Part shown: piece by piece, positions 4,009 through 48,271 of the stretch
Position numbering within the stretch: position 1 is the first letter of the stretch
Layout of the letters: each line of letters begins with the position of its first letter
Assembly (NCBI GenBank): GCA_013177855.1
Contig: JABLYA010000001.1
Span: 853,231 to 917,230 of the forward strand
Direction: 5' to 3'
DNA length: 64,000 bases
Source of the DNA: Ignavibacteria bacterium
GTDB taxonomy: Bacteria; Bacteroidota; Ignavibacteria; Ch128b
Notes under the pieces: generated by a model
Database searches by the model: none
Seen by the model: only the letters and a program-made list of their open reading frames with translations
Told to the model about the DNA's origin: nothing
Program-made: the position numbers and the translations under genes

Positions 4009-4392
4009 TTAGTTATTAATCGTAACAGTAATATTATCTGGCGTCACTACTGCTGTTGCTTTAACTTTGTTTTTTCCATCATTACCGGTTTCATTACCAG
4101 TACCAACTATAGTTACAACAGTTGCAGCCACTGTGGCGGTGTAAGTACCATTACCGGTCTGTGTCAAAGAAGGTGGAATAGTAAAACCAGTAAATGAATT
4201 CCCGCCACCACCAAGTGCGGTTGGCTTTCTATAATATTGCTGTGCAAATGCACCAATATTATTTAAGTCAGCAATTACCGCGTCTCTATTTGCACTTTGT
4301 GCGCTAGTACTTGCCAGGTTGATGCCTACCACAATGGCGATACCCACAATGATTACTCCAATTACGATTAGAAGAAGTTGTTGTTGACCCAT
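4009..4392 (-). CDS. Small type IV pilin-like protein, copy 1
   Basis: 127 residues. After Met-Gly the protein goes straight into a hydrophobic helix (QQQLLLIVIGVIIVG), then a helical segment rich in Asn/Asp/Gln and a Thr/Gly/Val-rich beta-type C-terminal domain. This is pilin architecture with a two-residue leader; Gly2 would be the residue before the cleavage site, and the canonical Glu at mature position 5 is replaced by Leu. A strong ribosome binding site (AAGGAG, 7-8 bases ahead) and a private terminator point to high expression. The first 58 residues are identical to those of the neighbouring copy at 4617-5000. Probably a major structural pilin; no database match was checked. Confidence 0.7.
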   Translation of the reverse strand: MGQQQLLLIVIGVIIVGIAIVVGINLASTSAQSANRDAVIADLNNIGAFAQQYYRKPTALGGGGNSFTGFTIPPSLTQTGNGTYTATVAATVVTIVGTGNETGNDGKNKVKATAVVTPDNITVTINN

Positions 4393-4616: not shown

Positions 4617-5000
4617 TTAATTATTAACCGTGACAGTGATTCCTGTCGGAGTAACGACCGCAGTTGCTTTCACTTTGTTTTTACCATCATTGCCTGTTTC
4701 ATTACCAGTTCCAACTAATGTCACAACTGTTGCACCGACCGTAGCAGTATATGTTCCATTAGCTGTTTTGGTTAAATTTGGTGGAATAGTCCAGCCAGTA
4801 AATGAGTTACCACCACCACCCATCGTTGTTGGTTTACGATAGTATTGTTGAGCAAAAGCTCCAATATTATTGAGATCAGCAATAACCGCATCTCTATTTG
4901 CACTTTGTGCACTGGTACTTGCTAAGTTAATACCAACTACTATAGCGATACCAACAATGATTACTCCAATTACAATTAATAAGAGTTGTTGTTGACCCAT
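4617..5000 (-). CDS. Small type IV pilin-like protein, copy 2
   Basis: 127 residues, the same length as copy 1 and about 91% identical by hand alignment (11 differences, all after residue 58). It has the same Met-Gly-Gln start, the same hydrophobic helix and the same Gly-rich hinge (GGGGNSFTG). The DNA of the identical N-terminal part differs at many third codon positions, so the duplication is not recent and the protein is under constraint. A GGAGG ribosome binding site and its own terminator suggest strong independent expression. Probably an alternative or co-assembled major pilin. Confidence 0.7.
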   Translation of the reverse strand: MGQQQLLLIVIGVIIVGIAIVVGINLASTSAQSANRDAVIADLNNIGAFAQQYYRKPTTMGGGGNSFTGWTIPPNLTKTANGTYTATVGATVVTLVGTGNETGNDGKNKVKATAVVTPTGITVTVNN

Positions 5001-36863: not shown

Positions 36864-36883
36864 TTTTTTGGAAAGTATTGAAA

Positions 36884-37309
36884 ATGGAACAGTCATATAA
36901 AATAAGCGAAGTTGCAGAAATACTGGGAATTTCAATTCATACTTTAAGAATGTACGAAAAAGAAGGTTTAATAATACCCGAAAAAGGAGAAAATAACCAG
37001 CGTAGATATACAGAAAATGATATTAATCGATTAAGGTGTATTAGAAGATCAATAAATGAACATAAAATCAGCATCCGAGGCTTAAAAGTAATTTATTCAC
37101 TCATCCCCTGCTGGGAAATCATTAAGTGTTCGGAAGAAGATAGAAAAAATTGTCCCGCCTATGTTTCAACTACAAAACCTTGCTGGATGACAAAAGGGAA
37201 GGAAACAGTATGCGGAAATTTGAGCTGCCGTGAATGTGAAGTCTATAAAACACTGAGTGACTGCACTAAAGTTAAAGACATAATTAAGAAAACTCGGAGT
37301 GTCAGATGA
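36884..37309 (+). CDS. MerR-family regulator with eight-cysteine C-terminal domain (copy 1)
   Basis: 141 residues from the ATG at 36884 (GGAAAG ribosome binding site; the upstream in-frame TTG is unlikely). Residues about 5-75 are a MerR DNA-binding domain (YKISEVAEILGISIHTLRMYEKEGLI...RRYTENDINRLRCI). The C-terminal part, about 80-140, has eight Cys with spacing C-x5-C-x7-C-x9-C-x9-C-x4-C-x2-C-x8-C and two CW pairs, identical to the second copy at 46575. Likely senses a sulfur species, metal or redox state. Overlaps the oxidoreductase gene by 4 bases, so it is the first gene of the operon it probably controls. Confidence 0.82.
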   Translation: MEQSYKISEVAEILGISIHTLRMYEKEGLIIPEKGENNQRRYTENDINRLRCIRRSINEHKISIRGLKVIYSLIPCWEIIKCSEEDRKNCPAYVSTTKPCWMTKGKETVCGNLSCRECEVYKTLSDCTKVKDIIKKTRSVR

Positions 37310-39510
37310 ACACAATTTCAAGAAGAAAATTTTTAAAAATAACGAGTGCAACAATTGCAACCGCCGCAATTTTATCCGGTGGAGGTAAACATATCATAAA
37401 GGGTGCAGAAACAATAAATTCAAAAGTGATTAAAGGCGTTCAGAAAATACCAACCTACTGTGATTTATGCTTCTGGAAATGCGGTGTGATTGCTTATGTA
37501 AAAGATGGAAAACTCTGGAAACTTGAAGGTAATCCTTTAGATCCTCTTAGTAAAGGCAGATTGTGCCCAAGAGGAACCGGAGGTGTTGTTGCACATTACG
37601 ATCCTGAAAGATTAAAATCACCTCTAATTAGAAAAAATCTTCGAGGTGAAGAAAAGTGGGTTGAGGTCACCTGGGACGAAGCTTTGAATTACATCGCTGA
37701 TAAAATGATTAAGATAAAGAATGAATATGGGCCTGAATCAATCGCATTGTTCTCTCATGGAATTGGTGGAACATTCATTAAACATCTTTTAAGAGCTTAT
37801 GGCAGTCCAAATGAAACTGCACCTTCATTTGCACAATGTCGTGGTCCACGCGAAGTTGGTTTTGAATTAACATTTGGTGATGTAGTTGGTTCGCCAGAAA
37901 GAACTGATATAGAAAACGCAAAATGTCTTGTCTTAATTGGTTCTCATCTCGGTGAAAATATGCACAATACTCAAGTGCAGGAATTTTCAAAAGCAGTTGA
38001 ACGAGGTGCATCAATTATAGTTGTTGACCCACGATTTAGTGTTGCTGCAAGCAAGGCAAAATATTATCTGCCAATTAAACCTGGAACCGATCTCGCTCTA
38101 CTTCTTGCATGGATGGGAGTAATTGTTCGAGAAAAATTATATGATGAAGAGTATGTAAAAAAATATGGTTACGGATTTGAAAAATTTGCTCAGGAAGTTT
38201 CTCAATACACTCCCGAGTGGGCTTATATCGAAACAGGAATTAAACCAGAATTGATTGTTGAAACCGCTCGTGAAATGTCAAGATACAAACCAGCAACATT
38301 AATTCACCCGGGAAGGCATACAACCTGGTATGGTGATGATACTCAAAGAAGTCGAGCAATTGCATTATTAAATGCTTTAATGGGAAGTTGGGGAAGAAAA
38401 GGCGGTTTCTATGTTCCTTATTCAATGAGCATCCCCAAATACCCATATCCACCTTATCCAGAATTAAAGAAAGAACCAGTTGATAATCCAAATGGAAGAT
38501 TTCCATTTGCAACTGGTGAACAAATTTCAACTGGAATAAGAGAAGCTACAATTACAAGTAAACCATATCCAATTAAAGGCTGGTTTATTTACGGTACAAA
38601 TCTTCTTCAAGCTCTGCCAAATAGGGAAGAAACGATAAAAGCGATCCAAAATCTTGATTTAATGGTTGTAATAGATGTTATTCCAAGTGAAATTGCCGGC
38701 TGGGCTGATGTTGTGCTTCCTGAGTCAGTTTATCTTGAAAGATATGATGAATTAAATAACTCACCTTTTAGAGAAGGTTTTGTGGGAATTCGTCAACCTG
38801 TTGTAGAAGAACCAGCCAATCAAAAACCAAATTGGTGGATTGCCAAAAAATTAGCTGAGAAACTTGGGCTCCAACAATATTTCCCTTGGAAAGATATCGA
38901 AGAATATCTTCAAACAAGATTAAGTCTTGCTGGACTTTCTTTTGAAGAATTAAAAGAAAAAGGAATTATAAAAGCTCCATCACAACCAATTTATTTTGAA
39001 GATGGCGTTGAACCAGTGTTTGAAACTCCATCCGGTAAAATTGAATTTTATTCAGATCAACTTGCTTCAGCGGGCTTTGATCCTGTTCCAAGATATACAA
39101 AACATCCAGATCCACCAGCTGGTTATTTCAGACTTCTCTTTGGAAGAGCTCCTGTGCATACATTTAGTAAAACTCAATCGAATCCACTGCTTCGAGATAT
39201 GATGAGCGAAAATGAAGTCTGGGTAAATGCTGATGTCGCTGAAAGGTGGGGCTTGAAAAATGGTCAGAAAATTAAACTGAAAAATCAGGATGGTGTTTTG
39301 AGTGATCCAGTTAAAGTTAAAGTGACTGAAAGAATAAGAAAAGATTGCGTTTATATTGTTCATGGATTTGGTCAAAAATCACGAGCATTGCGTTCCATTT
39401 ACCGAAAGGGCGCAAGTGATGCAGAACTTATAACAAAATATACAACTGACCCCTTAATGGGTGGAACAGCAATGAATGTAAACTTTGTAACTTTTGAATT
39501 GGAGGTTTAA
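37306..39510 (+). CDS. Tat-exported molybdopterin oxidoreductase, polysulfide/thiosulfate reductase type, catalytic subunit
   Basis: 734 residues, the usual size for PsrA/PhsA. A Tat signal (SRRKFLK) is followed by a 4Fe-4S site (CDLCFWKC...CPRG, about 50-86), the molybdenum-bis-MGD domains and a C-terminal cofactor domain. Cys near residue 177 (FAQCRGPRE) is at the expected Mo-ligand position, as in PsrA/PhsA. The enzyme would act in the periplasm on polysulfide, thiosulfate, tetrathionate or a related sulfur compound, in either direction; sequence alone does not decide. Sits with FeS and NrfD subunits in one operon. Confidence 0.85.
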   Translation: MNTISRRKFLKITSATIATAAILSGGGKHIIKGAETINSKVIKGVQKIPTYCDLCFWKCGVIAYVKDGKLWKLEGNPLDPLSKGRLCPRGTGGVVAHYDPERLKSPLIRKNLRGEEKWVEVTWDEALNYIADKMIKIKNEYGPESIALFSHGIGGTFIKHLLRAYGSPNETAPSFAQCRGPREVGFELTFGDVVGSPERTDIENAKCLVLIGSHLGENMHNTQVQEFSKAVERGASIIVVDPRFSVAASKAKYYLPIKPGTDLALLLAWMGVIVREKLYDEEYVKKYGYGFEKFAQEVSQYTPEWAYIETGIKPELIVETAREMSRYKPATLIHPGRHTTWYGDDTQRSRAIALLNALMGSWGRKGGFYVPYSMSIPKYPYPPYPELKKEPVDNPNGRFPFATGEQISTGIREATITSKPYPIKGWFIYGTNLLQALPNREETIKAIQNLDLMVVIDVIPSEIAGWADVVLPESVYLERYDELNNSPFREGFVGIRQPVVEEPANQKPNWWIAKKLAEKLGLQQYFPWKDIEEYLQTRLSLAGLSFEELKEKGIIKAPSQPIYFEDGVEPVFETPSGKIEFYSDQLASAGFDPVPRYTKHPDPPAGYFRLLFGRAPVHTFSKTQSNPLLRDMMSENEVWVNADVAERWGLKNGQKIKLKNQDGVLSDPVKVKVTERIRKDCVYIVHGFGQKSRALRSIYRKGASDAELITKYTTDPLMGGTAMNVNFVTFELEV

Positions 39511-39511
39511 A

Positions 39512-40051
39512 ATGCCAAGATATGGAATGGTCATCGATACCAAAAAATGTGTTGGCTGTCAGGATTGTGTACTCGCCTGTAAAACTGAAAACAACATCCC
39601 TGAAGGTTACAACCGAGATTGGATTGTAACTGAAGTACACGGCAAGTTTCCTGACTTACATATGGAAATTAGAACTGAAAGATGCAATCATTGCACGAAT
39701 ACACCCTGTGTTTCTGTTTGCCCAACAGGCGCAAGTCATATTCACGAATGGGGTGGAATTGTCTTAGTAGATAAGGATTTGTGCATTGGTTGCAAAGCTT
39801 GTGTAGAAGCTTGTCCATACGACGCAAGATATATTCATCCCGATGGTTATGCTGATAAATGCACTTTTTGTATTCACAGAGTTGAAAAAGGATTACAACC
39901 AGCTTGTGTTGAAGTTTGTCCAACTCATTGCATTTATTTCGGAGATTTAGATGATCCAAATAGTGAAGTAAGTCAATTGCTTAAATCTCGTAAATGGCAT
40001 GTAAATCTCCCAGAAGCTGGCACTGAACCAAATATCTTTTATTTAATTTGA
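39512..40051 (+). CDS. 4Fe-4S ferredoxin-type electron-transfer subunit (PsrB-like)
   Basis: 179 residues from the ATG at 39512 (GGAGG ribosome binding site); an upstream in-frame start would overlap the preceding gene. Four 4Fe-4S clusters are predicted from CVGCQDCVLAC, CNHCTNTPCVSVC, CIGCKACVEAC and CTFCIHRVEKGLQPACVEVC. No signal peptide, so it is probably exported in a complex with the Tat-tagged catalytic subunit. Carries electrons between that subunit and the NrfD protein. Confidence 0.93.
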   Translation: MPRYGMVIDTKKCVGCQDCVLACKTENNIPEGYNRDWIVTEVHGKFPDLHMEIRTERCNHCTNTPCVSVCPTGASHIHEWGGIVLVDKDLCIGCKACVEACPYDARYIHPDGYADKCTFCIHRVEKGLQPACVEVCPTHCIYFGDLDDPNSEVSQLLKSRKWHVNLPEAGTEPNIFYLI

Positions 40052-40066
40052 AAGAGGTAGATAGAT

Positions 40067-41023
40067 ATGCAAGATTTACTTGAACTTACAACCACTCGCC
40101 ATAATCCTCACATAGATCCGTATATGTCAATGTGGGAGTGGCAGATTCCTCTTTATCTTTTCCTGGGCGGAATTGTCGCTGGAATGATGATCATAAGTGG
40201 ATTCTTTATTTTCAGTAAGAGATATAAAGAGACAGATTGTGCGTGTTTCTCAACTCCGTTAATTAGTTTGATATTAATCAGTCTTGGTATGTTCTTCCTC
40301 TTCCTTGATTTGTCTCACAAACTTTATGTTTGGCGCCTCTATACTACTTTTAAAATTAATTCACCAATGTCTTGGGGCGCCTGGATTCTTCTACTTGTCT
40401 ATCCAGCATTGATACTGAATTTACTTTTAAAGCCACCATTGTTCATTCAGGAAAAAATTAAATCAATTGCCAATATCAGTTTAAAAATTTCATCGCATCC
40501 ATTTTTAGTTAAGATTACTGGTATTGCTAATATGCTAATTGGCTTGATGCTTAGTGCATACACTGGTGTTTTATTAAGCGTAATGGGTTCAAGACCTCTC
40601 TGGAATTCTTCATTGCTCTGGTTTTTATTTTTAGTTTCAGGACTTTCAACAGCAGCAGCATTTGTTCACTTATTTGCAAAGAATAAATACGAAAGCGAAT
40701 TACTTGCAAAAGCAGATAATGGCTTTTTAACTCTTGAACTCTTTGTCATTTTTATGTACATAATTGGATTGCTTTCTTCCGCAAAACCGCATAAAGAAGC
40801 TGCAACTTTGTTAATTAATGGTCCTTTTGCTCCAGCATTTTGGGTCTTAGTTATTTTGATGGGGATTTTAATCCCACTTTTTATTCAATTACTTGCAGTC
40901 AATCATAAAATAAAACATACACCTGTCGCGCCAATTTTTGTCATCTTAGGTGGAATTATTTTGAGATTTATCATAGTCGAAGCTGGACAATACAGTCATT
41001 GGTTTAATGCACATTTTAAGTAA
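40067..41023 (+). CDS. NrfD/PsrC-type quinone-interacting membrane subunit
   Basis: 318 residues with eight or nine membrane segments and the NrfD-type opening WEWQIPLYLFLGGIVAG. It anchors the oxidoreductase and exchanges electrons with (mena)quinone. No haem ligands are expected in this family. Follows the FeS subunit by 15 bases. Confidence 0.9.
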   Translation: MQDLLELTTTRHNPHIDPYMSMWEWQIPLYLFLGGIVAGMMIISGFFIFSKRYKETDCACFSTPLISLILISLGMFFLFLDLSHKLYVWRLYTTFKINSPMSWGAWILLLVYPALILNLLLKPPLFIQEKIKSIANISLKISSHPFLVKITGIANMLIGLMLSAYTGVLLSVMGSRPLWNSSLLWFLFLVSGLSTAAAFVHLFAKNKYESELLAKADNGFLTLELFVIFMYIIGLLSSAKPHKEAATLLINGPFAPAFWVLVILMGILIPLFIQLLAVNHKIKHTPVAPIFVILGGIILRFIIVEAGQYSHWFNAHFK

Positions 41024-41035
41024 AAGGAGTAAAAA

Positions 41036-41611
41036 ATGACAACACTTGCAAAAAAGATTTCTGAACTTTTTACTAAAGACATTGAACTTGTTGAGGCAAA
41101 ACCCAAACCTTATTCAAATCCTTACTTGACTGGAATTGGTTTGGGAATTGTTCTTCTTCTCTCATTCGTCATAATGGGTCGAGGCCTTGGTGCCTCTGGT
41201 GCAATGTCTTCACTCATCGCATACGGAGTTTATAATATCTCTCCAGAACATGCTTCATCAAATGAATTTTACAAAGAATACATTGGTGATGGGACTACCA
41301 ATCCATTAAAAGACTGGCTTGTTTTTGAAGTTCTTGGTGTCCTTGTTGGTGGATTTATCTCAGGCACTTTAGCTGGTAGAGTCAGAAAAAGAGTAGAGAA
41401 AGGACCAAATATTTCAAAGGGTAAAAGATTATTCTTTGCCTTTATTGGTGGTGCTTTGATGGGTTTTGGAGCTAAACTTGCTCGTGGCTGCACAAGTGGT
41501 CAGGCACTTACCGGCGGTGCTTTACTCAATCTTGGCAGTTGGATATTTATGGTGATGGTTTTTGCCGGTGGTTATGCTTTTGCATACTTTCTAAGGAGGC
41601 AATGGTTATGA
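41036..41611 (+). CDS. YeeE/YedE-type sulfur transporter, first half
   Basis: 191 residues with about five membrane segments. The diagnostic GRGLGASGAMSS and LARGCTSGQALTGGA motifs contain the single Cys; YeeE-type importers pass thiosulfate along conserved cysteines. Together with the next gene it would make a full-length transporter split over two genes, like PmpA/PmpB. Overlaps the second half by ATGA. Confidence 0.85.
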   Translation: MTTLAKKISELFTKDIELVEAKPKPYSNPYLTGIGLGIVLLLSFVIMGRGLGASGAMSSLIAYGVYNISPEHASSNEFYKEYIGDGTTNPLKDWLVFEVLGVLVGGFISGTLAGRVRKRVEKGPNISKGKRLFFAFIGGALMGFGAKLARGCTSGQALTGGALLNLGSWIFMVMVFAGGYAFAYFLRRQWL

Positions 41612-42213
41612 ACGCACCATTTTTCAAATTCGGATATTTCAACACTGAAATAAGTCTTGTGATTGCATTTTTAATTGGAATTGGTTTCGGTTTCGCTTTA
41701 GAAAGAGGTGGATTTGGAAGTGCAAGAATCCTAGCTGCTCAATTTTATCTTTCTAATATGCGAGTTCTTAAAGTAATGTTTAGCGCAATAGTAACAGCAA
41801 TGCTGGGAGTGTATTACTTAGGAGTAATTGGATTTCTTGATTTGAAATTAATCTATATGACTGAAACTTACATTCTCCCTCAAGCTATCGGTGGACTTAT
41901 TTTAGGAATTGGTTTTATAATTGGCGGCTATTGTCCGGGAACATCTGTCGTTTCATTTGCCACTGGTAGTATTGATGGATTAATGTTCATTCTTGGAGCC
42001 TTATTTGGAATATTTACATTTGGTGAAATTTATCCACTCATTTCTGATTTCTATAATTCAACAAATTTAGGAGTTGTCCGTTTACCTGAAGCTCTCCATC
42101 TACCTTATGGGCTTGTTGTTTTTTTAGTTGTTGTTATGGCAATTGGTGCTTTCGCTTTGGCAGAATGGGCAGAAAAGAAATATGCTTTCAGAAATCCGGA
42201 GAATGAAAAATGA
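41608..42213 (+). CDS. YeeE/YedE-type sulfur transporter, second half
   Basis: 201 residues from the ATG at 41608, which has an AGGAGG ribosome binding site eight bases ahead and overlaps the previous stop as ATGA. Membrane segments with FALERGGFGSAR and GGYCPGTSVVSFATG; its only Cys is in that second motif. Pairs with the preceding protein; likely imports a sulfur compound made or used by the molybdoenzyme in the periplasm. Confidence 0.85.
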   Translation: MNAPFFKFGYFNTEISLVIAFLIGIGFGFALERGGFGSARILAAQFYLSNMRVLKVMFSAIVTAMLGVYYLGVIGFLDLKLIYMTETYILPQAIGGLILGIGFIIGGYCPGTSVVSFATGSIDGLMFILGALFGIFTFGEIYPLISDFYNSTNLGVVRLPEALHLPYGLVVFLVVVMAIGAFALAEWAEKKYAFRNPENEK

Positions 42214-42863
42214 AAAAGTTATTCTCTAAATTATCATTAAATCAAAAGCTGGCTTTGGTTGCTATTCTTCTCGGAGTAATTGCGCTTCTCGCAGGAAATC
42301 CTTTCGATAATGATATAGTTGAAGTTAACGTTAAAGATTTAGCTTTATCTACGGTAAAAGATTCGGATAAAATTAAACCAGAAGTTATTGCTGATTGGTT
42401 AATTCAAGGAAAAGCAGATTTTGTTTTAATTGACTTAAGAAATCCTGAAGAATTTGAAAAATATTCACTGCCAGAAGCTGAAAATATTCCACTTGTTTCA
42501 TTACCTGAAGCAGAATTGTACAGAAATCAAAAATTAATTCTTTACGCTGAAGATAATTTAAGAGCTGCTCAAGGATGGTTTATTTTAAAATCTAAAGGTT
42601 TCAAAAATGTTTACATACTTGACGGCGGATTAGAAAGCTGGAAAAACGAAGTGTTATTTCCAAAACTCAGCTCAAATCCGTCCAAAGAAGAATTAAGCCT
42701 TTTTGAAAAAAAGAAAGCAATTGCAAAATATTTTGGTGGTCAGGCAATTACTGGTAATGCTTCAGTTGAAGAAAAAACTGAAATATCTTTACCTTCACCA
42801 ACATCGACACAAAAAGCAACTGGCAGTATACAACCAAAGAAAAAGAAACGAGAAGGTTGTTAA
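42210..42863 (+). CDS. Membrane-anchored rhodanese-fold protein without active-site Cys, ending in a single Cys
   Basis: 217 residues. One N-terminal membrane segment (about 13-30) with positive residues before it places the rest in the periplasm. The rhodanese fold (about 45-145) is recognisable (LIDLRNPEEFEKYSLPEAENIP and GFKNVYILDGGLESWK), but the catalytic loop reads LYAEDNLRAAQ, with Ala where the persulfide-forming Cys should be. A 60-residue Pro/Ser/Thr/Lys-rich tail follows and ends KKKKREGC. That terminal Cys is the only one in the protein. Overlaps the transporter gene by 4 bases. Confidence 0.85.
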   Translation: MKKLFSKLSLNQKLALVAILLGVIALLAGNPFDNDIVEVNVKDLALSTVKDSDKIKPEVIADWLIQGKADFVLIDLRNPEEFEKYSLPEAENIPLVSLPEAELYRNQKLILYAEDNLRAAQGWFILKSKGFKNVYILDGGLESWKNEVLFPKLSSNPSKEELSLFEKKKAIAKYFGGQAITGNASVEEKTEISLPSPTSTQKATGSIQPKKKKREGC

Positions 42864-43294: not shown

Positions 43295-43687
43295 ATGGAA
43301 ATAAATCGAAGAAAGTTTTTGAAACAAATAAGCAATTTAATCTGGATTGGATTTGGTTTTCTCATCTTCAAATCGTCAGAAAAAAATTTGCTTAATTCAA
43401 AAAAAGGAAAAATCAAAACCTATGAAAATAACTTCCCTGAAGGAATAACTGTTTTAGATGGACTGATTATTTCAAAAAGTGGAAATGAATTAAAAATCTT
43501 TAAATCAACCTGCACACATCTTGGGTGTAATGTGAATTTATCATTTGATCAAAATTTAGTTTGTCCCTGTCATGGTTCTAAATTTAAATCTAATGGTAAA
43601 GTAATAAGCGGTCCAGCCACAAAAAACCTTGAAGAAGTTCAGTTCGAACTTGACAGGCTAAAAAATCAAATTATAGTTTATGTCTGA
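43295..43687 (+). CDS. Rieske 2Fe-2S protein
   Basis: 130 residues. N-terminus NRRKFLK plus a hydrophobic helix is a Tat-type signal anchor. The 2Fe-2S ligands are CTHLGC (about 74-79) and CPCHGS (about 95-100), complete. It overlaps the cytochrome b/c fusion gene by 8 bases, so both form a Rieske/cytochrome b-type quinol-oxidising unit. Confidence 0.92.
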   Translation: MEINRRKFLKQISNLIWIGFGFLIFKSSEKNLLNSKKGKIKTYENNFPEGITVLDGLIISKSGNELKIFKSTCTHLGCNVNLSFDQNLVCPCHGSKFKSNGKVISGPATKNLEEVQFELDRLKNQIIVYV

Positions 43688-46382
43688 TGCTTTTGACAAT
43701 AAAAATTCTTTTTTATTCAAATTACTCAAATTCCCTTATGGCGAGATAGCAACTTCCCTTTTTTACATTTCAATAATTGGCGGAATTGGAATTTCTCTTT
43801 CTTTTGATGCAGAAAAACCTCTTCAGTCAATTTCTGAAATTTTAATTTTAGACTATTTTGGATCTTTCTTAAGAAATATCCATTACTGGTCATCTCATTT
43901 ATTTTTAATCTTTTCAATTCTGCACATAATCGAACATTTAATAAAGAAATCTGAGCAGAAAGTAAAAAATGTCATCTGGCTTCATCTTACTTTTTCTATT
44001 TTTTTAATTTTTTATGTGATGCTAAGTGGTTTTTTATTGAAAGGCGATTATGACTCTTTACATGCTTTTAAAATTTTTTCAACTATAGCCCGAAGTATTC
44101 CATTTGTCGGAGATGAGATTTCTTTTTTCCTTCTCGGAAATGAGAATAATTTCAAAATAATTTTCTTTCAACACATTGGAACATCGACAATAATTTTACT
44201 CTTTATTATTCTTGAGCATTCAAGAATTTTTCTTCCAAGAAATGATAGATTTTTAATTGCTGCCTTATCTGTTCTTATTCTAAGTTTTCTTTTAACGCCG
44301 CTTCCAAATGATTCTTTTTCAATGATTATAAAAGGACCCTGGTATTTAGCAGGACTTCAAGAATTTTTGCATTGGTTTTCAAATCCTGTAATCGTAATCG
44401 TAATCTTAATTTTAATATTGTTCCTCTTTTACTTGATTAAAATCGTTTCAAATATTTACAGAAAAATCTTATTGATAACGCTTTCAATAATAATTTTATC
44501 TCTTACAATTCTAACTGTAACTGGTTTATTCTTCCGTGGTGAAAACTGGCAGCTTACTTCACCTTCTTATAAAAACATTAATGTAAAATTTGAGTTTTTG
44601 AAATTCTTAAATCCCTCAACGAAAGAGGTTGTGAATGACTCTTTAAAAGTAATTGAGGGAAGATTTGAAGGTTGTTTAAGCTGTCATAATATGAAAGGCT
44701 TAACCTCTTCACATAATCCAGAACAAATTGGATGCTTTAGTTGTCATCGTGGTAATGTCTATACTTTAAATAAGAATTCTGCCCATCGCGGTATGATTTT
44801 GATTCCAGGAAATCTTTCAAATGCAAAATTAACTTGCGGTAATTCTAAATGTCATCCAGATTTATTGTATCGTGTTGAAAGATCTATTATGTCTACACTC
44901 AGCGGGATGATAAGCGTCGATAAATTTACTTTTAATGAAATCAAAACTCCAGAAGGAAGTTTTAATGTCAAAGATTTAAAGTATTCGGCTGCAGATACTC
45001 ATTTAAGAAATCTCTGCGTCTCCTGTCATTTAGGAAACGAGAAAAATGAATTTGGCAAAATTGATGAACTTTCAAGAGGAGGAGGCTGTCTTGCATGCCA
45101 TTTAAATTACAACAATGAAACTGAAGAACAATTAAATCATTACAAAAAATCAAAAGAGCAACTTCCAGTTCTGCATCCATCAATTGATTTGAAGATATCA
45201 AATGATCATTGCTTTGGTTGTCATAGCCGATCAGGAAGAATATCCACAAATTATGAAGGTTGGTCAGAAATACTTCCAGATGAAGTAAACTTTAAAAACA
45301 TAGAACATCGAAGCCTCAAAGATGGAAGGATCTTCATAAAACAAATACCTGATATTCATTTCGAAAAAGGAATGGATTGCATCGATTGTCACATTTCACT
45401 AGAGTTAATGGGAGATGGAAATGTCTATGAACATAAAGAGCAACAAATTAAAATTAGCTGCGAAGATTGTCATACAGAAAAACTCAATCTTATCCCTTTA
45501 AACGAAATAGATTATGAAACTAAAAAAATTTTAACTCTTAGAGACACCGCTTATTTTAATCAAGATAATAAATTAATTGCGCTTAAAGGAACTAAAATAC
45601 CGTTTACCAACAAAATTGAAATTTCAAATGGTAAAACTTTTTTCTTCACTAAAAATTCCAACAGAAAACTTGAACTAAAGAAACCAGCTCCTGAATGCAC
45701 AGCTAATTCACACAAAAATCTGAGTTGTGAAAGTTGTCATACAAATTGGGTAACGAGATGTAATGGTTGTCATACTAAATTTGATCCAAACGAAATTGGT
45801 TTTGATCACCTGACAAATCAAGCAATAAAAGGAAGCTGGATTGAAGAAGCTCATAACTTTGAAGTTGGACAACCCACTCTGGGCATAATCAAAATAAAAG
45901 ACAAAGAAAAAATTTCGAGCTTTATACCAGGAATGATTATCAAAATCTCCGATCAAAAATCAAAAATGATAAAGTTTAATAGATTATTTGCCCCAACTTT
46001 TCCTCACACAATCCGGAAAGAAGTGAGAAGTTGTAAAAGTTGTCATCAATCATCAACTGCTTTGGGATATGGCAAAGGCAAAATTGGTTTCAGTGAAGTA
46101 CTTAATAAATTTAAAATTGACTTTACACTGGAAGATCAAATTAATCCTATCGATTTACTTCCAAACGATGCATGGATAAAATTTTTAGATGAAGGAACAA
46201 ACCCCAACTCGACTCGAACCTATGCAAAAAACCTCCCTCTTGAAAAGCAGAAAAAAGTTTTATCGGTTGGAGCTTGTTTGAACTGTCATAAGGAAAATTC
46301 AAAAGTTATTAATGAATCCCTAATTAATTTTGAAAATACACTAAAGAATCGCTCACCTAAATGCATCCTGCCTAAATTTTAA
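43680..46382 (+). CDS. Cytochrome b fused to a twelve-haem c-type cytochrome
   Basis: 900 residues. Residues about 1-300 are a cytochrome b with seven or eight membrane segments: the haem pair H-x13-H in NIHYWSSHL...ILH (helix B) and H-x14-H in FQHIG...LEH (helix D), and GPWY at about residue 218 in place of the quinol-site PEWY. Residues about 325-880 hold eleven CxxCH motifs and one CxxxxCH (about 331, 351, 386 as CxxxxCH, 446, 470, 511, 567, 594, 683, 694, 785 and 866). The periplasmic part would carry electrons on from the Rieske/cytochrome b unit. No stop or frameshift between the halves. Confidence 0.9.
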   Translation: MSDAFDNKNSFLFKLLKFPYGEIATSLFYISIIGGIGISLSFDAEKPLQSISEILILDYFGSFLRNIHYWSSHLFLIFSILHIIEHLIKKSEQKVKNVIWLHLTFSIFLIFYVMLSGFLLKGDYDSLHAFKIFSTIARSIPFVGDEISFFLLGNENNFKIIFFQHIGTSTIILLFIILEHSRIFLPRNDRFLIAALSVLILSFLLTPLPNDSFSMIIKGPWYLAGLQEFLHWFSNPVIVIVILILILFLFYLIKIVSNIYRKILLITLSIIILSLTILTVTGLFFRGENWQLTSPSYKNINVKFEFLKFLNPSTKEVVNDSLKVIEGRFEGCLSCHNMKGLTSSHNPEQIGCFSCHRGNVYTLNKNSAHRGMILIPGNLSNAKLTCGNSKCHPDLLYRVERSIMSTLSGMISVDKFTFNEIKTPEGSFNVKDLKYSAADTHLRNLCVSCHLGNEKNEFGKIDELSRGGGCLACHLNYNNETEEQLNHYKKSKEQLPVLHPSIDLKISNDHCFGCHSRSGRISTNYEGWSEILPDEVNFKNIEHRSLKDGRIFIKQIPDIHFEKGMDCIDCHISLELMGDGNVYEHKEQQIKISCEDCHTEKLNLIPLNEIDYETKKILTLRDTAYFNQDNKLIALKGTKIPFTNKIEISNGKTFFFTKNSNRKLELKKPAPECTANSHKNLSCESCHTNWVTRCNGCHTKFDPNEIGFDHLTNQAIKGSWIEEAHNFEVGQPTLGIIKIKDKEKISSFIPGMIIKISDQKSKMIKFNRLFAPTFPHTIRKEVRSCKSCHQSSTALGYGKGKIGFSEVLNKFKIDFTLEDQINPIDLLPNDAWIKFLDEGTNPNSTRTYAKNLPLEKQKKVLSVGACLNCHKENSKVINESLINFENTLKNRSPKCILPKF

Positions 46383-46494: not shown

Positions 46495-46574
46495 AAATTA
46501 TTTAAAAAATCGATTTTTTTATTTGGCCTATTAGTTGCTAAATATCAATAGTAATTATGATAACTATAATTGAT

Positions 46575-47045
46575 ATGAGCCAATCAAAACCAAAATATAA
46601 AATTAGTGAAGCTGCAAAGATACTTGGGATTTCAGTACATACTTTAAGAATGTACGAAAGAGAAGGACTAATTATTCCATATAAAAAGTCTACAAATCAA
46701 AGATTATATTCTGAAGAAGATATTCATCGTCTACGATGCATTAGGAATGCAATCAAAGAAGATAAAATCAGCATTGAAGGCATTAAAAGAATTTTTTCAC
46801 TAATACCATGTTGGGCAATTGTTAATTGTTCGTTGCAGAACATTGATTTTTGCAAAGCTTTGAAATCTTCAAATAGGCCTTGCTGGACATTCAAACATGA
46901 AAACAATTTTTGTTCAGATAAAGACTGCAGAGAGTGCGAAGTTTACAAGATTTTTAATAACTGCGAATCAATTAAATCAAAATTAATTGAACTAACTTTT
47001 AATGGGATTTATCAAAAAGAAGAATTAAAAGAGGAACGAATATGA
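46575..47045 (+). CDS. MerR-family regulator with eight-cysteine C-terminal domain (copy 2)
   Basis: 156 residues from the ATG at 46575, chosen because it aligns with the start of copy 1; an in-frame start at 46557 is possible. The DNA-binding helices are nearly the same as in copy 1 (YKISEAAKILGISVHTLRMYE), which explains the shared operators. All eight Cys of the C-terminal domain have exactly the same spacing as in copy 1. A longer charged tail follows. Overlaps the flavoprotein gene by 4 bases. Confidence 0.82.
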   Translation: MSQSKPKYKISEAAKILGISVHTLRMYEREGLIIPYKKSTNQRLYSEEDIHRLRCIRNAIKEDKISIEGIKRIFSLIPCWAIVNCSLQNIDFCKALKSSNRPCWTFKHENNFCSDKDCRECEVYKIFNNCESIKSKLIELTFNGIYQKEELKEERI

Positions 47046-48271
47046 GAAAACTCGTAATCTTAGGTGCTGGTACTGCCGGCACAATGATGTTAAACAAATT
47101 ATATAATGCACTTGATTTAAAAGATTGGAGCATTACAATTGTCGATAAAGAAGAAACACATTATTATCAACCTGGATTTTTGTTCATTCCATTTGAGATT
47201 TACACAAGGCGGGATGTTATAAAACCAAAGCGAGATTTCTTTCCTTCTGGTGTTGAAGTCATTATGAGCGAGATCGAAAGAATTGAACCAGATAAAAATA
47301 GAGTGATACTTGCAAACAACAGAGTATTGCCCTATGATTATTTAATAATTGCAACAGGTTCAAGAGTTGATCCAAATGAAGTTGAAGGGATGAAAGATAA
47401 ACTTTGGTACAAAAATGTTTTCGACTTTTACACAATTGAAGGTGCCTGTGCGTTAGGAAACCTCTTTAAACATTGGGATGGTGGAAGGCTTGTTATTCAC
47501 ATAACTGAGATGCCAATCAAATGTCCGGTTGCTCCACTTGAATTTGCATTCTTAGCAGATTGGTATTTTACTGAAAGAGGAATTAGAGATAAAGTTGATA
47601 TTCATTTTGTTACTCCTCTGCCCGGTGCATTTACAAAACCAAGAGCTTCAGCCATTCTTGGTGATTTCCTTGAGAAGAAAAACATTAAACTTGTCACTGA
47701 CTTTAATATCGCAAGAGTAGATAACGACGAGAAAAAAATTGTCAGCTGGGATGAAATCGAAGTTCCTTTCGATGTGCTGGTAACAATCCCAACAAATAAA
47801 GGTGACGAAGCAATTGCTCGAAGCGGTATGGGTGATGTATTGAATTTCATTCCTACTGATAAACACACTCTTCTTGCTGAAGGTTTTGATAATATCTTCG
47901 TTATTGGCGATGCAACAAATCTTCCAAGTTCAAAAGCTGGTTCGGTAGCCCATTTCCAATCAGAAATTTTGTTTGAAAACTTTTTGGATGTAATCGATGG
48001 CAGAAAACCAACAGCAAAATTTGATGGTCATGCTAATTGTTTCATTGAAAGCGGGTTTGGCAAAGGTATATTAATTGATTTCAATTATGATACAGAACCA
48101 CTTCCTGGAAAATTCCCATTACCTGGAATTGGACCATTTTCATTATTAGAAGAGACAAAGATGAATCACTATGGCAAAGTAATGTTCAGATGGATGTACT
48201 GGAATTTCTTACTCAAAGGAATTGAACTCCCAATTGAATCCCATATGACAATGGCTGGAAAGAGGTTGTAA
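47042..48271 (+). CDS. Sulfide:quinone oxidoreductase-like FAD protein
   Basis: 409 residues. FAD-binding GAGTAG (about 8-13), ATGSRVDP (about 104) and the second FAD motif FVIGDATNLPSSKAG (about 290) mark the SQR/flavocytochrome c family. Cys161 in MPIKCPVAP matches the conserved redox Cys of SQR; further Cys are at about 136 and 333. The short hydrophobic C-terminus fits monotopic membrane binding. It would oxidise sulfide or a carrier persulfide and reduce quinone, or run in reverse. Co-transcribed with DUF1641, TusE and DsrE2-like genes. Confidence 0.82.
   Translation: MRKLVILGAGTAGTMMLNKLYNALDLKDWSITIVDKEETHYYQPGFLFIPFEIYTRRDVIKPKRDFFPSGVEVIMSEIERIEPDKNRVILANNRVLPYDYLIIATGSRVDPNEVEGMKDKLWYKNVFDFYTIEGACALGNLFKHWDGGRLVIHITEMPIKCPVAPLEFAFLADWYFTERGIRDKVDIHFVTPLPGAFTKPRASAILGDFLEKKNIKLVTDFNIARVDNDEKKIVSWDEIEVPFDVLVTIPTNKGDEAIARSGMGDVLNFIPTDKHTLLAEGFDNIFVIGDATNLPSSKAGSVAHFQSEILFENFLDVIDGRKPTAKFDGHANCFIESGFGKGILIDFNYDTEPLPGKFPLPGIGPFSLLEETKMNHYGKVMFRWMYWNFLLKGIELPIESHMTMAGKRL

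Follow-up and report, generated by a model that had tools for sequence, protein, structure and literature searches.

Whether one polypeptide can combine a quinol-oxidizing cytochrome b with a multihaem cytochrome c, and what such a protein would do, is the question raised by a locus in a 64,000-nucleotide stretch of DNA from an Ignavibacteria bacterium, the whole of which is called the window here. The first-pass annotation described a single reading frame joining a full cytochrome b, with intact haem-ligand pairs and GPWY at the place of PEWY, to eleven CxxCH motifs and one CxxxxCH motif, with an overlapping Rieske gene in front. These elements were all confirmed, and only the word "full" needs correction: both haem-b ligand pairs are present, but the cytochrome b is of the b6 plus subunit IV type with seven helices and not an eight-helix bc1 protein. 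The features of the locus are as follows.

36878–37309, plus strand: MerR-type regulator (conserved in the linked operon)
37306–39510, plus strand: PsrA/PhsA-type molybdopterin oxidoreductase with the twin-arginine start SRRKFLK (profiles; 2vpw match)
39494–40051, plus strand: PsrB-type ferredoxin subunit (profile match)
40067–41023, plus strand: PsrC/NrfD-type quinone membrane subunit (profile match)
41036–42213, plus strand: two YeeE/YedE half-transporters of a sulfur/selenium transport family (profile match)
42210–42863, plus strand: membrane-anchored rhodanese (profile match)
43295–43687, plus strand: ExtO-like Rieske [2Fe-2S] protein, CTHLGC...CPCHGSKF (Pfam, PDB search, alignment)
43680–46382, plus strand: fused cytochrome b6/IV–dodecahaem cytochrome c (open reading frame, motifs, profile matches, fused homologues)
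43680–44234, plus strand: ExtP-like b6 part, helices A–D, with H68/H82 and H165/H180 (profile matches, alignment)
44235–44579, plus strand: ExtQ-like subunit IV part, helices E–G, ending in FFRGENWQLTSP, compared with FFRGQNWAFFAP in ExtQ (ExtQ profile, alignment)
44334–44345, plus strand: GPWY replacing the PEWY Qo motif (alignment of fused homologues)
44655–46340, plus strand: ExtM-like 12-haem c domain, residues 326–887, predicted periplasmic (NF040943 match)
44835–44855, plus strand: CxxxxCH, the third haem motif, residue 386 (conserved in the class)
45933–45935, plus strand: Met752 of IPGM (Met in 31/31 own-phylum homologues)
46557–48271, plus strand: second MerR regulator and type III sulfide:quinone reductase, SQR (profile match)

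The frame at 43680–46382 runs through 900 codons, and no stop codon separates the membrane part from the haem part. The corresponding parts are separate genes in Geobacter-type clusters, which would fit two genes wrongly joined by an assembly or frameshift error; however, searches with the ExtM model in 395 genomes of the phylum and in 391 of the class gave 15 genomes (including that of the window) with an intact fused gene of 900–942 residues. These genes belong to five families of the class (f1, f6, f10, f18 and f19), share the layout, GPWY and CxxxxCH, and in two cases lie on single-contig genomes; the b–c junction is also open in G001, a genome of the same genus. Since the fused frame recurs in related genomes, the fusion is not an assembly error, and an artefact is extremely improbable. 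Homologues are accordingly not always encoded as separate genes; the annotation had named the opposite finding as fatal to its claim. An AlphaFold2 model of the full chain, aligned with four relatives only, reached a mean pLDDT of 38 and a pTM of 0.26, too low for the model to be used.

Residues 1–300 are membrane-embedded, with seven predicted helices in total, and the predicted topology places the N-terminus inside and the haem domain outside, in rough agreement with the loop charges by a modest margin. Pfam covered the b6 half only (Cytochrome_B PF00033, residues 18–155, E = 5e-10, above the gathering score), and the subunit IV half was recognized through the ExtQ model and the alignment. 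Among NCBIfam models, ExtP (NF040969, E = 7.5e-17) matched the b6 part, ExtQ (NF040970, E = 0.0035) the subunit IV part, and ExtM (NF040943, E = 3.7e-70) was matched nearly end to end by the haem part; all three bit scores fall below the curated equivalog cut-offs (237 bits against 800 for ExtM), so by that standard the proteins are relatives and not orthologues. FFRGENW (FFRGQNW in ExtQ) closes the last helix and is followed directly by the haem part, which indicates that in the fusion ExtM continues from the C-terminal end of ExtQ.

The membrane alignment comprised the window protein, the 14 other intact fused proteins, the degenerate copy of G599, the same-genus copy, and Myxococcales ExtP plus ExtQ. 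The haem-b ligands show b6-like spacing (H68/H82 14 apart, H165/H180 15 apart) and do not vary among the 15 intact fused proteins, in the copy from the same genus or in ExtP; G599 is the exception. No cysteine that could anchor haem ci occurs before residue 332 of the window protein, so the covalent haem ci of b6f complexes proper is absent. The PEWY motif varies among bc-complex members and is characteristic rather than strictly defining. GPWY, at residues 219–222, lacks the Qo glutamate; it is found in 15/15 intact fused genes, where KGPWYxxGxQE is invariant, and also in G001, while the Myxococcales ExtQ equivalent is TAAWFLLWTQE. Its conservation means that GPWY is not a sequence error, and the further form in ExtQ indicates that this position is loose in the lineage. 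GPWY did not occur in the open papers found on Qo-motif variants, and it may, as the annotation suggested, signal altered quinol chemistry.

The Rieske gene overlaps the fusion by 8 nt and encodes a protein with an N-terminal RRKF Tat-type signal-anchor, a PF00355 match (E = 3e-12), and both cluster sites expected of bc complexes, CxHxGC (CTHLGC at residue 73) and CxCH (CPCH at residue 90); its closest PDB sequence is 9rk4, anammox Kuste4569. A Rieske gene lies directly upstream in 15/15 intact fused genes, and none was found upstream of ExtM-only genes within the sequence examined. In the genome of the window, no other Rieske-type cytochrome b scored above threshold.

The haem part contains CxxCH at residues 332, 352, 446, 470, 511, 567, 594, 683, 694, 785 and 866 besides the CxxxxCH motif. 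None of the twelve proximal histidines varies across 35 homologues, which excludes chance occurrence. The annotation suspected an unusual haem at CxxxxCH; the same alignment position is CxxCH in G174 and G331, which belong to other families, and in Geobacter-type ExtM. A c-haem whose motif has a longer loop is the likelier reading, and an exotic haem the less likely one. Own-phylum homologues share eight further invariant histidines (345, 369, 441, 499, 560, 585, 678 and 776) and three invariant methionines (404, 577 and 752), so that among twelve haems not every one has an obvious conserved His as sixth ligand. A PDB sequence search with the c domain returned only weak NrfA-like matches.

The equivalent of Met752 in Desulfobacterota-side relatives is Cys or an in-frame TGA. 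The TGA occurs at PG[U]QDF in nine ExtM-like genes (L129–L136 and L149), and Cys stands there in 17 other relatives. The codon probably specifies selenocysteine: tRNA-Sec was above the Rfam cut-off in 9/9 TGA-carrying genomes, and none was found over it in the window's genome (46.2 versus 47 bits). The search for SECIS elements after the TGA codons gave single-fold hairpins with z-scores of −0.3 to −1.3 and no consensus structure. Selenocysteine in these cytochromes could possibly act as a haem ligand or in an active site.

The window parts are homologous to ExtO, ExtP, ExtQ and the 12-haem ExtM of the Geobacter sulfurreducens ExtMNOPQS (GSU2935–2930) bc complex (PMC5877670, PMC2825233). The ext operon of Geobacter is a selenite/tellurite operon with ExtM as its 12-haem cytochrome, and a rhodanese lies nearby in both systems; its parts are separate genes in the order M-N-O-P-Q-S, whereas those of the window are fused. 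The 10-haem ExtN, the Sec-containing ExtKL, the porin ExtI and ExtS were not recognized beside the window genes or the fused homologues examined. The Myxococcales Ext locus also differs, with TAAWF in ExtQ and twelve CxxCH in ExtM instead of GPWY and a CxxxxCH.

Further likenesses are partial. In the accessible part of its description (PMC9129911), CbcL of Geobacter resembles the window protein as a single chain in which a multihaem c part in the periplasm comes after a membrane domain with two b haems, and it oxidizes menaquinol at the inner membrane, as proposed here for the window protein; it differs in its six-helix b domain, nine c-haems and, in that part, no Rieske partner noted. The window protein stands apart from CbcL in its PF00033 match, seven predicted helices, twelve haems and Rieske partner. 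Anammox Rieske/b complexes likewise combine b6-like cytochrome b and SUIV-like proteins with cytochromes carrying six or eight haems, but these multihaem partners are separate subunits, NAD(P) oxidoreductase subunits are present, and no ExtM-type 12-haem domain is reported (PMC12954380). The same source describes a dihaem c fused to cytochrome b in anammox Kuste3096–3097, and cytochrome b fused to small c domains in many Gram-positive complexes (PMC12954380). Campylobacter jejuni QcrABC is a menaquinol Rieske/b complex feeding periplasmic molybdoenzymes, as proposed below, but with a separate dihaem c subunit and different reductases (PMC6195509). The Nap cluster of Caldithrix abyssi also places Rieske and cytochrome b genes with multihaem partners in a molybdoenzyme operon, there with separate tetrahaem and octahaem proteins and a nitrate reductase (PMC5317091).

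The annotation had called a twelve-haem fusion unfamiliar. Considering the single-chain fusions in CbcL, anammox bacteria and Gram-positives, b–c fusion itself is not new; the unusual point is that a Rieske-type b6/IV domain is joined to a 12-haem ExtM-type cytochrome, of which no description was found in the open literature, itself weak evidence of absence. While bc complexes are usually thought to pass electrons to small c-type cytochromes, the acceptor in this complex would be a covalently attached 12-haem cytochrome.

The gene order in the window is MerR, PsrABC, two YeeE/YedE halves and rhodanese, then the fusion, then MerR, SQR, DsrC- and DsrE-like genes. The three subunits are homologous to PsrA, PsrB and PsrC as in Psr/Phs molybdoenzymes, and PsrA is closest to the Thermus thermophilus enzyme 2vpw (E = 2.5e-221). 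The MerR–PsrABC–YedE–rhodanese set adjoins fused genes in seven genomes, the degenerate one in G599, and unfused genes in six; a similar set without MerR adjoins the gene in three more (G588, G174 and G331), and psr does not adjoin the locus in another three. Molybdenum-cofactor genes lie near the locus in several genomes. Among genomes in which the linkage had not previously been established, a close PsrA was present in 12/14 with ExtM versus 3/24 without it (p = 1.2e-5, kinship ignored). This association with a molybdenum enzyme of the sulfur type suggests that quinone electrons are fed towards that enzyme.

Several observations stand beside this pattern. In G657 (L100 1–7636), the fused gene is preceded by further multihaem cytochrome genes (8, 6 and 8 motifs), and the neighbourhood differs from the usual psr operon. 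The SQR at 47042–48271 scored 665 bits with NF049943 (cut-off 525), an NCBIfam model of a selenoprotein subtype, yet its frame is open throughout. Elsewhere in the window, two nearly identical 127-residue pilin-like proteins are encoded side by side on the minus strand (4009–4392 and 4617–5000), with type IV pilus assembly-type genes nearby, and window proteins contain NPFNP(S/E)T sorting motifs, which would fit an Ignavibacteria-like class.

On balance, the locus probably encodes a menaquinol-oxidizing Rieske/cytochrome b complex in which a tethered 12-haem ExtM-type wire replaces cytochrome c1 or f and which serves a Psr-type periplasmic molybdoenzyme. Menaquinol would be oxidized at Qo, with one electron passing to the Rieske cluster and the tethered haem wire and the other returning via haems bL/bH to the menaquinone pool; such a Q cycle would make electron delivery to the periplasm energy-conserving. 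The likeliest partner of the wire would be the co-encoded, Tat-exported PsrA-type enzyme, acting on a chalcogen oxyanion of fairly high potential, such as tetrathionate or selenite, and not on polysulfide, the potential of which is too low for a Rieske chain. Garg et al. described an electrogenic supply of electrons from Qcr to the periplasmic enzymes Nap and Tor in Campylobacter and noted that the potential of tetrathionate (+198 mV) is high enough for such coupling (PMC6195509), and the Geobacter cluster was proposed as that organism's quinol oxidation site (PMC2825233). An NrfD gene at 80 kb near a haem-copper oxidase gene at 86 kb (80–87 kb region) suggests that oxygen is served by a distinct alternative complex III, so the Rieske–b–c12 complex is probably not the oxygen pathway of this genome.

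The electron acceptor and the direction of flow, which we infer, are the weak steps of this model. Thiosulfate and polysulfide couples have potentials far more negative than those of Rieske proteins, and should PsrA reduce either compound, electrons could not run forward from Rieske to PsrA. PsrABC also has its own quinone subunit, PsrC, so feeding by another complex is not required. Nor does the partnership depend on b, since the link to psr persists in ExtM-only relatives, which have neither b nor Rieske. The missing Qo glutamate and the loci not next to psr were also counted against the model.

Two other functions were weighed. The complex might drain the quinone pool during sulfur oxidation, SQR or a reversed PsrABC reducing menaquinone with sulfide or polysulfide and the electrons leaving for a general periplasmic or extracellular acceptor instead of PsrA. 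Electron transfer from sulfide to menaquinone is thermodynamically favoured, and the SQR, DsrC-like and DsrE-like genes downstream of the fusion fit such a role, as does the adjacency of SQR to the psr cluster in G591 and G620 and to the broken fusion in G001; the Geobacter cluster with ExtM relatives is, moreover, tied to metal and selenite reduction (PMC5877670). However, SQR is not next to most fused genes examined, and no outer-membrane porin–cytochrome or ExtI-like gene was recognized beside the fusion, leaving this function rather unlikely. Still more doubtful is the reading that the c12 domain acts as the terminal reductase itself, on a substrate such as selenite, tellurite or tetrathionate, with one haem that has an exchangeable sixth ligand and the fusion forming a self-contained quinol-dependent reductase. 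The eleven further invariant His and Met residues for twelve haems may leave one haem or more with no fixed ligand, and residues that act in catalysis or as ligands typically show the kind of variation seen at position 752 (Met, Cys or probable Sec). The Met at this position in the window lineage nevertheless points to an electron-transfer haem, and the genes remain linked to psrA.

The distribution of the fusion points to a long history. ExtM-only genes of other genomes encode about 610–665 residues, with a single anchor helix where read; genes at contig ends in two genomes were left out of the fused/unfused judgement. The b and c parts have a common history, their identities rising and falling together (Mantel r = 0.90, p = 1e-4). 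On the c-domain tree, fused and unfused genes are intermingled, which requires five changes, at least three of them forced by well supported branches: unfused G625 is sister to fused G273, and a single group of seven unfused f10 genes stands next to four fused ones. A single clade of fused forms was rejected on this tree. The five changes together with the b/c concordance favour, as the simplest reading, one old fusion with repeated loss of the Rieske–b module over separate fusions. On the Desulfobacterota side, at most one helix precedes the first haem in 11/11 loci read. A scan of genome contigs gave five relatives, the single complete Ext-type locus read being unfused.

Two loci can be read as natural experiments. 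In G599 (L089 6693–9281), the b part of the fused gene is degenerate (H82 to F, H180 to P, GPWY gone) and no Rieske gene lies upstream, although MerR–PsrABC still adjoins it; thus the b part retains its haems only where Rieske is present. In G001 (L031 10860–15300), the fusion has one frameshift, in its c part, the Rieske start contains stops and a frame change, and the gene in front contains stops. The downstream MerR–SQR–DsrC–DsrE genes are intact, with MerR, SQR and DsrE 82–95% identical to those of the window, and no close PsrA occurs anywhere in that genome. The locus is apparently decaying, with assembly error as a less likely alternative.

These results lead to a tentative proposal: a one-chain complex leading from quinol to wire, which cooperates with a PsrA-type enzyme in electrogenic chalcogen-oxyanion reduction, through a Q cycle at a GPWY Qo site, and in which Rieske–b may be an optional power unit that was repeatedly lost. 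Related genomes offer natural versions in which the Rieske–b part is there, degenerate or lacking while the molybdoenzyme operon next to it stays the same. These would make it testable whether a bc complex can drive sulfur or selenium respiration in the periplasm directly and whether the glutamate at Qo is indispensable.
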